64,000 nucleotides of DNA from Candidatus Melainabacteria bacterium (GTDB lineage Bacteria > Cyanobacteriota > Vampirovibrionia > 2-02-FULL-35-15): contig JACQBQ010000018.1 of NCBI GenBank assembly GCA_016201905.1, positions 1 through 64,000 on the forward strand. The letters run 5' to 3'. Positions 7,386 through 11,221 of this stretch are shown here, in pieces (the first letter of the stretch is position 1; every line of letters starts with the position of its first letter). Both the position numbers and the translations under genes were made by a program. The notes under the pieces are model-generated. The model searched no databases. It was given only the letters and a program-made list of their open reading frames with translations, and was not told the origin of the DNA.

Positions 7386-8018
7386 ATGAAGAAAAGTAAT
7401 ATAAGGAAGATCCTTTCTCTTCTAAAAGAACAATATCCAAAAGTAAAGTGTGCTTTAAGCTATAAAAACCCTCTTGAACTTTTAATCGCAACAATTCTTT
7501 CAGCTCAGTGTACGGATAAGAGGGTGAATATTGTCACTGAAAAACTCTTTAAAAAGTATAAAAATATAAAGGATTATGCTTGTGCTAACTTGCAAGAGTT
7601 TGAAAAGGATATTTACTCTACAGGTTTTTACAGGAATAAAGCTAAAAATATAATTTCTACATGTCAGATCATTGATAAAAAATATAAAGGCAAGGTACCA
7701 AAAGACTTTAATAAGCTTTTAGAACTGCCAGGGGTTGCTAGAAAAACTGCTAACTGTGTAATGGGCAACGCTTTTAATATACCTTCTGGGGTGGTGGTGG
7801 ACACGCATGTATCGAGAATTACCCAAAGGCTTGGACTTACTAAAAATTCTGATCCAAATAAAATAGAACAGGATTTAATTAAAATTATCCCTAAAGATGA
7901 ATGGATTATGTTTAGTCATAGGTTGATCTGGCATGGTAGGAAAATTTGTGATGCAAGAAGACCTAAATGTGAAATTTGTAATTTAAACAAATTATGTCCA
8001 TCAGCTGCTAAGTATTAA
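7386..8018 (+). CDS. nth: Endonuclease III
   Basis: This is a base-excision repair DNA glycosylase/AP lyase acting on oxidised pyrimidines (210 aa, normal length). The helix-hairpin-helix LPGVARKTA (114-122) contains catalytic Lys120, and the catalytic Asp is D139 in VVVDTHVSR. The C-terminal [4Fe-4S] loop is intact: Cys188, Cys195, Cys198 and Cys204 in the C-x6-C-x2-C-x5-C pattern. It starts 31 bp after the Ala-rich gene and overlaps the tail of the convergent YkgJ remnant by 11 bp. Confidence 0.96.
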   Translation: MKKSNIRKILSLLKEQYPKVKCALSYKNPLELLIATILSAQCTDKRVNIVTEKLFKKYKNIKDYACANLQEFEKDIYSTGFYRNKAKNIISTCQIIDKKYKGKVPKDFNKLLELPGVARKTANCVMGNAFNIPSGVVVDTHVSRITQRLGLTKNSDPNKIEQDLIKIIPKDEWIMFSHRLIWHGRKICDARRPKCEICNLNKLCPSAAKY

Positions 8019-8279
8019 ATTTTTCCAGTAATTTGGGTGCAAACTCTTCAAGAGCAATTTTTGTAAGTTCTTCTGGAGAAAAGATCTCCAGGCGCTTTGA
8101 TCTTTTTGGTATTTTTAACATTTCAGAATAGTAGTCAAAAAAATTAGATTTTTGATTTGTAATCTTTTCCTTTAAGCAATATATTGCTTGAGATAAATTA
8201 TGTAATTGTTGATTTGTTAATTTTTTTAAATCATATTTCTTAGCCCATTCCTCCCTTTTATTATGAAGGAGCGTAATAC
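8008..8279 (-). pseudogene. C-terminal remnant of split YkgJ-family gene
   Basis: This minus-strand segment encodes about 90 residues, including REEWAKKYDLKKL and ending FSPEELTKIALEEFAPKLL. It looks like an ordinary soluble C-terminal region. It is in the same reading frame as the gene at 8440-8979, separated from it only by the palindromic element, which contributes one in-frame TAA (8440-8442). An ATG at 8352 inside the element could start a 114-aa product, but its first 25 residues would be repeat-derived. I read it as the displaced C-terminus of the YkgJ-type protein. Confidence 0.65.
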
Positions 8280-8460
8280 TCCGTGGCTTGCCACGAGAGA
8301 TATAAGCGACGAATAACAAACCGACTTTTCCGACGACTGGTGACGAAGTCATTAACTTCGCGAAATACCCTGCGGGCTTGCCCCAGGGATAGCGAAACTT
8401 CGCGAAATACCCTGCGGGCTTGCCCCAGGGATAGCGAAGTTAAAAAGAAGTCGGTTTATT
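8280..8460. repeat. Palindromic repeat, family A, copy 2, inside a gene
   Basis: This matches bases 1-139 over its whole length, plus a 42-bp tandem duplication of the AACTTCGC...GCGAA hairpin segment (copies near 8355-8397 and 8397-8439). It interrupts a YkgJ-family coding region on the minus strand. The flanking coding parts remain in one frame, and the element itself is open in that frame except for one TAA at 8440-8442. The duplication is 14 codons long and so also preserves frame. This behaviour resembles the in-gene palindromic elements of Rickettsia. Confidence 0.85.
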
Positions 8461-8979
8461 AATTTCAAGCTTTTCAAAGTTTTCAAGGTTTGACAAATTA
8501 TCGGTATTTAAAAAGTTTCTAAGTGTTTGTTCTTTTGGGTTTGCTTCTTTGTGAAATCCAAAGCAAACATTTTCTCTTAACTTATAATTTATACTTACGT
8601 TTCCTGTAGAATCGTTTATCATAAACTCGCTTGATAGGGGAAATATTCTACAGGCAAAAGGCCTGTCTATGTAAACCTGACAAGAGCCATCTTCTGAGAG
8701 GTTTGGACACCAGCCGTTTTCTCTCCACTTTATAAATGCTTTTGGAAGATTTGTTTTCTCATCAATTTTTATATCGATCAGGTTAATTATATTTAAGTCA
8801 ATTCTTTTGCTTAGCAGCTTATAAACATCATAAACAGACAGTTGTAAAAGCCCTACATTTTCTTTTATGCAACAAGTGCCCCAGCATTCTTTTGCGCAGG
8901 TAAAATTAAAACTCTCATCTTCTTTAATAAGTGTTTCTTTTACCTGCTTATTTAAGTACTGATTTAAGTTGTTTGGCAT
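8440..8979 (-). CDS. YkgJ-family metal-binding (CxxxCxxxCC) protein, 3' end replaced
   Basis: The protein belongs to the zinc/iron-chelating YkgJ (CxxCxxCC-type) family, whose cysteines are thought to bind a metal or Fe-S cluster. The N-terminal cluster FTCAKECWGTCC (26-37) and the typical CQVYIDRPFACRIFP (100-114) are intact. The natural sequence ends at about residue 173. The last six residues, NKPTSF, and the stop codon come from the palindromic repeat, so the original C-terminus (8008-8279) has been cut off. The cysteine domain may still work. The gene starts 13 bp after the bcp stop and is probably cotranscribed with it. Confidence 0.8.
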   Translation of the reverse strand: MPNNLNQYLNKQVKETLIKEDESFNFTCAKECWGTCCIKENVGLLQLSVYDVYKLLSKRIDLNIINLIDIKIDEKTNLPKAFIKWRENGWCPNLSEDGSCQVYIDRPFACRIFPLSSEFMINDSTGNVSINYKLRENVCFGFHKEANPKEQTLRNFLNTDNLSNLENFEKLEINKPTSF

Positions 8980-10560: not shown

Positions 10561-11169
10561 ATGATCCCCAATTATTTTTTATCCTTGTTAATTTGGATAA
10601 TTATAGGATACTTATCAGGCTCAATTCCTACAGGTTATTGGCTTGGCAAGTTAAAAGGTATAGACCTCACGCAGATTGGCAGTGGGAGCACTGGTGCTAC
10701 AAATGTTTTAAGAAATGTTGGCAAAGTTGAAGCTTTAATGACTTTAATCTTTGATGCTGTAAAAGGATTTTTACCGGTTTACTTTGCAATAAGATTTCAG
10801 GGTAGCAGCTCAATCGTTGTTTTTGTGGGAGTAGCTTGTATTCTGGGGCATAGCAAATCAATTTTTTTAAAGTTTAAAGGTGGAAAATCATCTGCAACAG
10901 GTCTTGGAATTTTAATTGCACTTAGCTGGCAGGCTGCAGTAATTACTTTTATGCTTTGGACAATTATAGTTTTGACATCAAGATATTCTTCTCTAGGATC
11001 GATTATTTCAATACCACTTACACCGGTATGGCTTTATTTATTTCATAAACCGGTAGCTTACATTTTATTTGTAGTGTTTGCTGCAGTTTATATTGTTCTA
11101 ATCAGGCATAGAGAAAATATACAGCGATTGCTCAAAGGAAATGAGCCGAAGATAGGGGAAGGAAATTAA
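10561..11169 (+). CDS. plsY: Glycerol-3-phosphate acyltransferase PlsY
   Basis: This integral membrane enzyme (202 aa, about five membrane segments) transfers the acyl group of acyl-phosphate to glycerol-3-phosphate, the first step of phospholipid synthesis. The three family motifs are visible: SGSIPTGYWLGK followed by GSGSTGATNVLRN, then FKGGKSSATGLG, and RHRENIQRLLKGNE near the end. No ribosome binding site is visible before the ATG, and the divergent purM start is 15 bp away. Its stop lies in the first unit of a heptad repeat. Confidence 0.95.
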   Translation: MIPNYFLSLLIWIIIGYLSGSIPTGYWLGKLKGIDLTQIGSGSTGATNVLRNVGKVEALMTLIFDAVKGFLPVYFAIRFQGSSSIVVFVGVACILGHSKSIFLKFKGGKSSATGLGILIALSWQAAVITFMLWTIIVLTSRYSSLGSIISIPLTPVWLYLFHKPVAYILFVVFAAVYIVLIRHRENIQRLLKGNEPKIGEGN

Positions 11170-11219
11170 GAATTAAGAATTAAGAATTAAGAATTAAGAA
11201 TTAAGAATTAAAAATTAAT
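11164..11219. repeat. Tandem 7-bp repeat (AATTAAG)n
   Basis: Six perfect AATTAAG units (11164-11205) are followed by two degenerate ones. The array fills the gap between the convergent genes plsY and leuB. A shorter version, GAATTAAGAATTAA, occurs after fabZ near 25353, also between convergent gene ends. The units are too short and spacer-free for CRISPR. It looks like a slippage microsatellite. Confidence 0.9.
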
Positions 11220-11221
11220 TC

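Follow-up and report, generated by a model that had tools for sequence, protein, structure and literature searches.

A TTATT-associated palindromic element family confined to one family of Melainabacteria, with a copy inside a YkgJ-like gene

The window, by which we mean the whole stretch of 64,000 nucleotides analyzed here, carries on its minus strand a gene of the YkgJ/CxxCxxCC family (PF03692, E=9.5e-10, 39.5 bits against a cutoff of 23) which is interrupted by a palindromic insertion (Table 1). Translation of the minus-strand frame 8979..8008 gives 324 codons with a single internal TAA, in agreement with the sequence-only reading of this DNA, which had placed the two halves of the gene in a common frame around one stop at 8440-8442. 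That reading was also correct in assigning six residues and the stop of the N-terminal protein to the element: the 179-aa product of this ORF ends NKPTSF*. It had further described a 181-bp element. The element is real, but the bounds 8280-8460 delimit only the part held in common with a second copy at the start of the contig; because that copy is cut by the contig start, 17 bp were missed on the left, and the true element is 198 bp in length (8263-8460). Of the coding parts then proposed, 8979-8461 stands and 8279-8008 has to be shortened to 8262-8008.

Table 1. Features of the interrupted ykgJ-like gene and of the inserted element in the window
Feature	Position	Strand	Remarks
N-terminal host part	8461..8979	-	173 native codons, whole metal-binding domain; PF03692
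Element-encoded TAA, end of N-terminal product	8440..8442	-	tail NKPTSF
C-terminal host part, cut off from the gene's start	8008..8262	-	84 codons + stop; 61-77% identity to homologue C-termini
TTATT target pentamer, directly 5' of element	8258..8262	+	in 39/41 complete copies, different contexts
Putative mobile element, 198 bp	8263..8460	+	156-bp form + 42-bp duplication; alignment of copies
Left hairpin 1	8271..8307	+	GC-GTAATA-CTCCGTGGCTTGCCACGAGAG-ATATAA-GC, CTTG loop; covarying helices 1 and 2
Right palindrome	8317..8460	+	outer arm CAAACCGACTT / AAGTCGGTTT around inner hairpins; terminates in the element's own TTTATT
Inner hairpin AACTTCGCGAAATACCCTGCGGGCTTGCCCCAGGGATAGCGAAGTT	8354..8441	+	42-bp unit, doubled in the window copy only
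Second copy, cut by contig start	1..139	+	assembly break at repeat; repeat comparison + BLAST

Joined without the insert, the host halves form a gene of 774 bp (257 codons plus stop), which aligns gap-free at the junction with intact homologues of about 256-272 aa from four related species, some of them titled Candidatus Melainabacteria. The junction reads FEKLEI^NKREEW in the window with the insert removed and FEKLEI^SKREEW in a homologue. The uninterrupted gene in these relatives bears out the earlier proposal that the element split its host protein with one stop. Identities of the N- and C-terminal parts against each of the four are 76/77%, 65/63%, 63/64% and 57/61%; since the two parts are about equally conserved, the insertion would be recent, or else the C-terminal part was under constraint until recently. 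The predicted outcome in the window is a complete metal-binding domain with a six-residue tail and a detached set of the last 84 residues. Several contigs of the source genome begin or end inside copies of the element (C23, C44, C42 and C50), as one might expect had two unrelated contig ends been joined through the repeat to give an assembly artefact. This we consider scarcely credible at the present locus, where both flanks belong to one gene without a gap relative to its homologues and where the neighbors nth, ykgJ, purM and plsY are collinear in the corresponding stretch (L025) of a relative. At the end of plsY the window also carries a tandem array of about eight AATTAAG units (11164-11220).

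Full copies of the element span from directly after TTATT (ATGAAGGAGCGTAATAC...) to ...AAGTCGGTTTATT, and most of those in the source genome (G000) are exactly 156 bp long, the window copy being 198 bp. With a GC content of 0.50 the element stands apart from the window (0.34). It folds with z-scores of -6.1 as DNA and -7.8 as RNA, none of 200 shuffles being as good, and single copies in general fold much better than shuffled sequence. In IS200/IS605 elements a guide sequence 5' of each hairpin pairs with the site of cleavage. A GAGCGAA-like motif precedes both hairpins on the 5' side in many of the present copies; no simple base-pairing rule linking it to TTATT was derived.

Among 24 diverse copies the two-hairpin fold is conserved and covaries strongly: both partners had changed in 85 cells, as against 27.7 in shuffles (0/500), and pairing reached 86% in the fold register compared with 33-57% when the register was slid. 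The outer arms scored low for covariation in alignment A1, an effect of MAFFT placing the arm in different registers from one subfamily to the next; read by eye they compensate one another (AAACCGACTT/AAGTCGGTTT, AAACGACTT/AAGTCGTTT and AAAGCGCCTT/AAGGCGCTTT). Subterminal hairpins are present at both ends on one strand. Non-Watson-Crick cells on the strand that begins with TTATT comprise 50 G.T and 14 A.C, cells which are not independent of each other, and this excess of G.T suggests that the TTATT-first (+) strand is likely the folded one, which we take as supporting rather than decisive.

The source genome (2.28 Mb in 59 contigs) gave 24 BLAST matches corresponding to about 22 copies, with which scans for the end patterns concur; these matches, together with fold scores beyond those of shuffles, exclude chance. 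Eight of the 11 genomes of the source's family or order carry the element by BLAST; the dispersed palindromic family postulated from the window is supported. Across 382 genomes of the class the left-end pattern matched only in these eight, and a covariance model applied with strict filters to 292 genomes of the phylum found matches confined to the source's family. Further subfamilies with different stems but a common plan came to light when left ends which seemed unpaired were fetched: with the exception of a few truncated cases, each turned out to be a short element complete in itself. No gene lies between the ends, and no autonomous version was seen; the left ends examined all belong to short transposase-free elements. 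Within G000, and likewise within G008, the copies hardly differ from one another, whereas those of different genomes are only about 72-92% alike, which implies that each lineage has recently amplified its own version. Rfam returned only two sub-threshold matches, attributable to chance; plasmid sequences gave no match; and in viral contigs the left end was absent, while 19 exact matches to a 15-mer from the right end were judged to be chance. The family appears to be undescribed in Melainabacteria, none having been found in the literature searched.

A number of copies are incomplete or otherwise unusual. Internally deleted short forms (L023, L037, L034 and L121) keep the left end and the right arm and lack most of the interior. 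Three copies in the source genome (L005, L007 and L006, on C55, C32 and C44) break at one common point in the interior, 116 in BLAST-query coordinates, beyond which lies unrelated sequence in two cases and a contig edge in the third; in L005 the ATG start of an ORF stands directly at the break. On the right flank of L013 (C12 of G000, near 125700) an extra hairpin, GCTATCCCTGTGGCAAGAGCACAGGGTATTACAC, lies beside the copy and resembles a lone inner hairpin.

TTATT is found directly 5' of 39 of the 41 complete copies, and the flanks show no further conservation on either side. A target duplication was considered and rejected: the variants seen at the right end (TTTATA, TTTGTT, TTCATT and TTTACT) have no counterparts on the left. 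As the two pentamers vary independently, the right-hand TTTATT belongs to the element itself. The two ends are unrelated, and there are no terminal inverted repeats.

Although about 80% of TTATT sites fall inside genes, the window copy is the only one of the 41 complete copies lying deep within a gene. Five others occupy the last 2-9 codons of genes and the remainder lie between genes or coincide with a stop codon, which argues that insertions within genes are purged or avoided. Several insertions have the gene's stop codon inside TTATT/AATAA, and a few genes now terminate within the element. These figures bear on the suggestion, made from the window alone, that the family inserts into genes and keeps their frame in the manner of the Rickettsia palindromic elements. 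Like those (PMC10969869), the present element is palindromic and of about 150 bp, and one of its copies sits in frame within a gene. A truncated copy lacking its right end (L007, on C32 of G000, about 133540-135110) is moreover fused in frame to a Ski2-like DEAD/DEAH helicase, the DSHCT domain of which stops early and has its end replaced by 44 element-encoded residues. The Rickettsia elements, however, are reported to lie mostly in genes and in frame (PMC10969869), whereas here nearly all copies are intergenic, lengths outside the source genome take all three values modulo 3, and the element, including the insert in the window, contains early stops. An in-gene, frame-keeping family is therefore very improbable, and the suggestion has to be abandoned. 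The same spread of lengths and the early stop make the preserved frame of the window copy a one-in-three coincidence. Copies which truncate genes or fuse with them appear to be chance events that the host has tolerated and not a habit of the family.

Where the pieces have a usable skew, the + strand of the element lies on the G-rich leading strand, that is, the lagging-strand template, in 30 cases against 10 (p=0.003 against the availability of TTATT). The ratio is 21:6 in those pieces whose plus- and minus-strand genes have concordant third-position skew, and 13:2 in G000 alone. No link was seen with the majority coding strand (24:20). For IS200/IS605 elements, use of the lagging-strand template and of subterminal hairpins is documented (PMC6006769), as is insertion on the 3' side of a tetra- or pentanucleotide that is not duplicated (PMC7290912). 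The element resembles them in its insertion 3' of a pentamer, its subterminal hairpins and its lagging-template orientation, and differs in having neither tnpA nor tnpB.

Taken together, TTATT, the lack of duplication and of terminal inverted repeats, the covarying subterminal hairpins and the strand-biased orientation point to single-strand transposition of the IS200/IS605 type. The element would on this evidence be non-autonomous and represent a new family of mobile elements that is restricted to a single family of Melainabacteria, and it probably moves as single-stranded DNA with the aid of an HUH transposase supplied in trans. Such a Y1 enzyme would recognize the folded + strand through the left hairpin and the right palindrome, and would cut after the TTATT of the left flank and again after the element's own terminal TTATT. 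The resulting circle would then be joined into the lagging-strand template on the 3' side of a further TTATT, leaving no target duplication; in the window such an event would have landed in frame inside the ykgJ-like gene. Recent amplification and the empty site in relatives further support mobility. Against this model stand the failure to find a transposase gene with these ends and the strand bias of G001, which is not clear (5:4). Both the participation of an HUH enzyme and the passage through single-stranded DNA are inferred.

A site-specific recombinase of the serine, tyrosine or IS110-like type, inserting a circular form at TTATT cores, would likewise place TTATT on both sides, and most copies do have identical pentamers at their ends. 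We think this quite unlikely, in that no conserved arms surround the targets and neither a strong strand-specific fold nor a replication-strand bias is predicted by such an enzyme.

The search for a transposase of the IS200/IS605 type was unproductive. No Y1 TnpA was found inside or flanking the element, no IS200-type TnpA exceeded the threshold in G000, and no TnpB did so in any of the 11 genomes; the Y1 loci examined contain no hairpin or left end matching the element. G000 does encode two proteins of RAYT-like type, at C30:5883-6389 and C40:34202-34744, which show NHLH, WQ and YIxNN motifs. These resemble subclass 2.4 by their motifs (following the table in PMC6006769), and the best NCBIfam match of their G001 homologs is the REP-associated tyrosine transposase, below cutoff. 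The element might then be a REP-like sequence, either cross-mobilized or a diverged REP, which is moved by the lineage's own RAYT proteins. It shares with REP/REPIN sequences and their RAYTs (PMC3733652, PMC6006769) an intergenic, gene-end location, short-loop hairpins (here looped by CTTG), G.T pairs in the stems and the presence of RAYT-type proteins in the genome. It differs in being a multi-hairpin unit of about 160 nt with a TTATT target and in not lying beside a RAYT gene, no copies having been found at the RAYT loci searched. The GTAG or CGTC tetranucleotide at the foot of the hairpin is absent from the element in alignment A1. Subclass 2.4 RAYT genes are described as containing GTAG-type hairpins (PMC6006769), as do most of those examined here, in frame in the two of G000 (L179 and L186) and in L060. 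The hairpin in the G000 genes is of an in-frame GTAGGGGC...GCCCCTAC type, unlike the TTATT element, which has no GT[AG]G foot. Nor do the distributions match: G002 and G006 have a RAYT and no element, G010 the element and no RAYT. Mobilization by the resident RAYTs is thus doubtful. L062, like the three RAYT genes just named, holds a GTAG-type palindrome, and a separate CATGTAACC..GGTTACAT hairpin occurs directly upstream of several RAYT genes.

Genomes with recent amplification, among them G000, G001 and G008, yielded no cognate transposase. One might therefore also suppose that this single-strand mobile unit of about 160 nt, kept in its folded form in at least eight species, depends for its movement on some enzyme that belongs to neither of the known sets, IS200/IS605 and REP-RAYT, or on functions of the host by themselves. 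We rate this as unlikely.

Among the known systems nearest to the element are the palindrome-associated transposable elements (PATEs) of Haloquadratum walsbyi, which possess near-terminal palindromes and have no terminal inverted repeats, no target duplication and no transposase (PMC3119063). The Melainabacteria element shares these four features, being too short to encode a transposase, and resembles PATEs too in its recent amplification and its forms shortened by deletion of the core. It belongs to another domain of life and has its own sequence. Furthermore, the palindromes of PATEs resemble the ends of an IS605 in the same genome (PMC3119063), and no such IS605/IS200 was found here. Judged from its sequence the element would work like an IS200/IS605-derived miniature; because a link to an IS605 end of the same lineage was looked for and not found, we file it as PATE/REP-like and not as a derivative of any named IS.

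The element indicates that the chemistry of transposition may be inferable from sequence alone by means of population statistics, here a fixed pentamer, a folded strand and a bias toward one replication strand. With it, the spread of transposase-free palindromic repeats becomes open to direct test, and its copies illustrate how repeats of this kind trim or replace the ends of genes.
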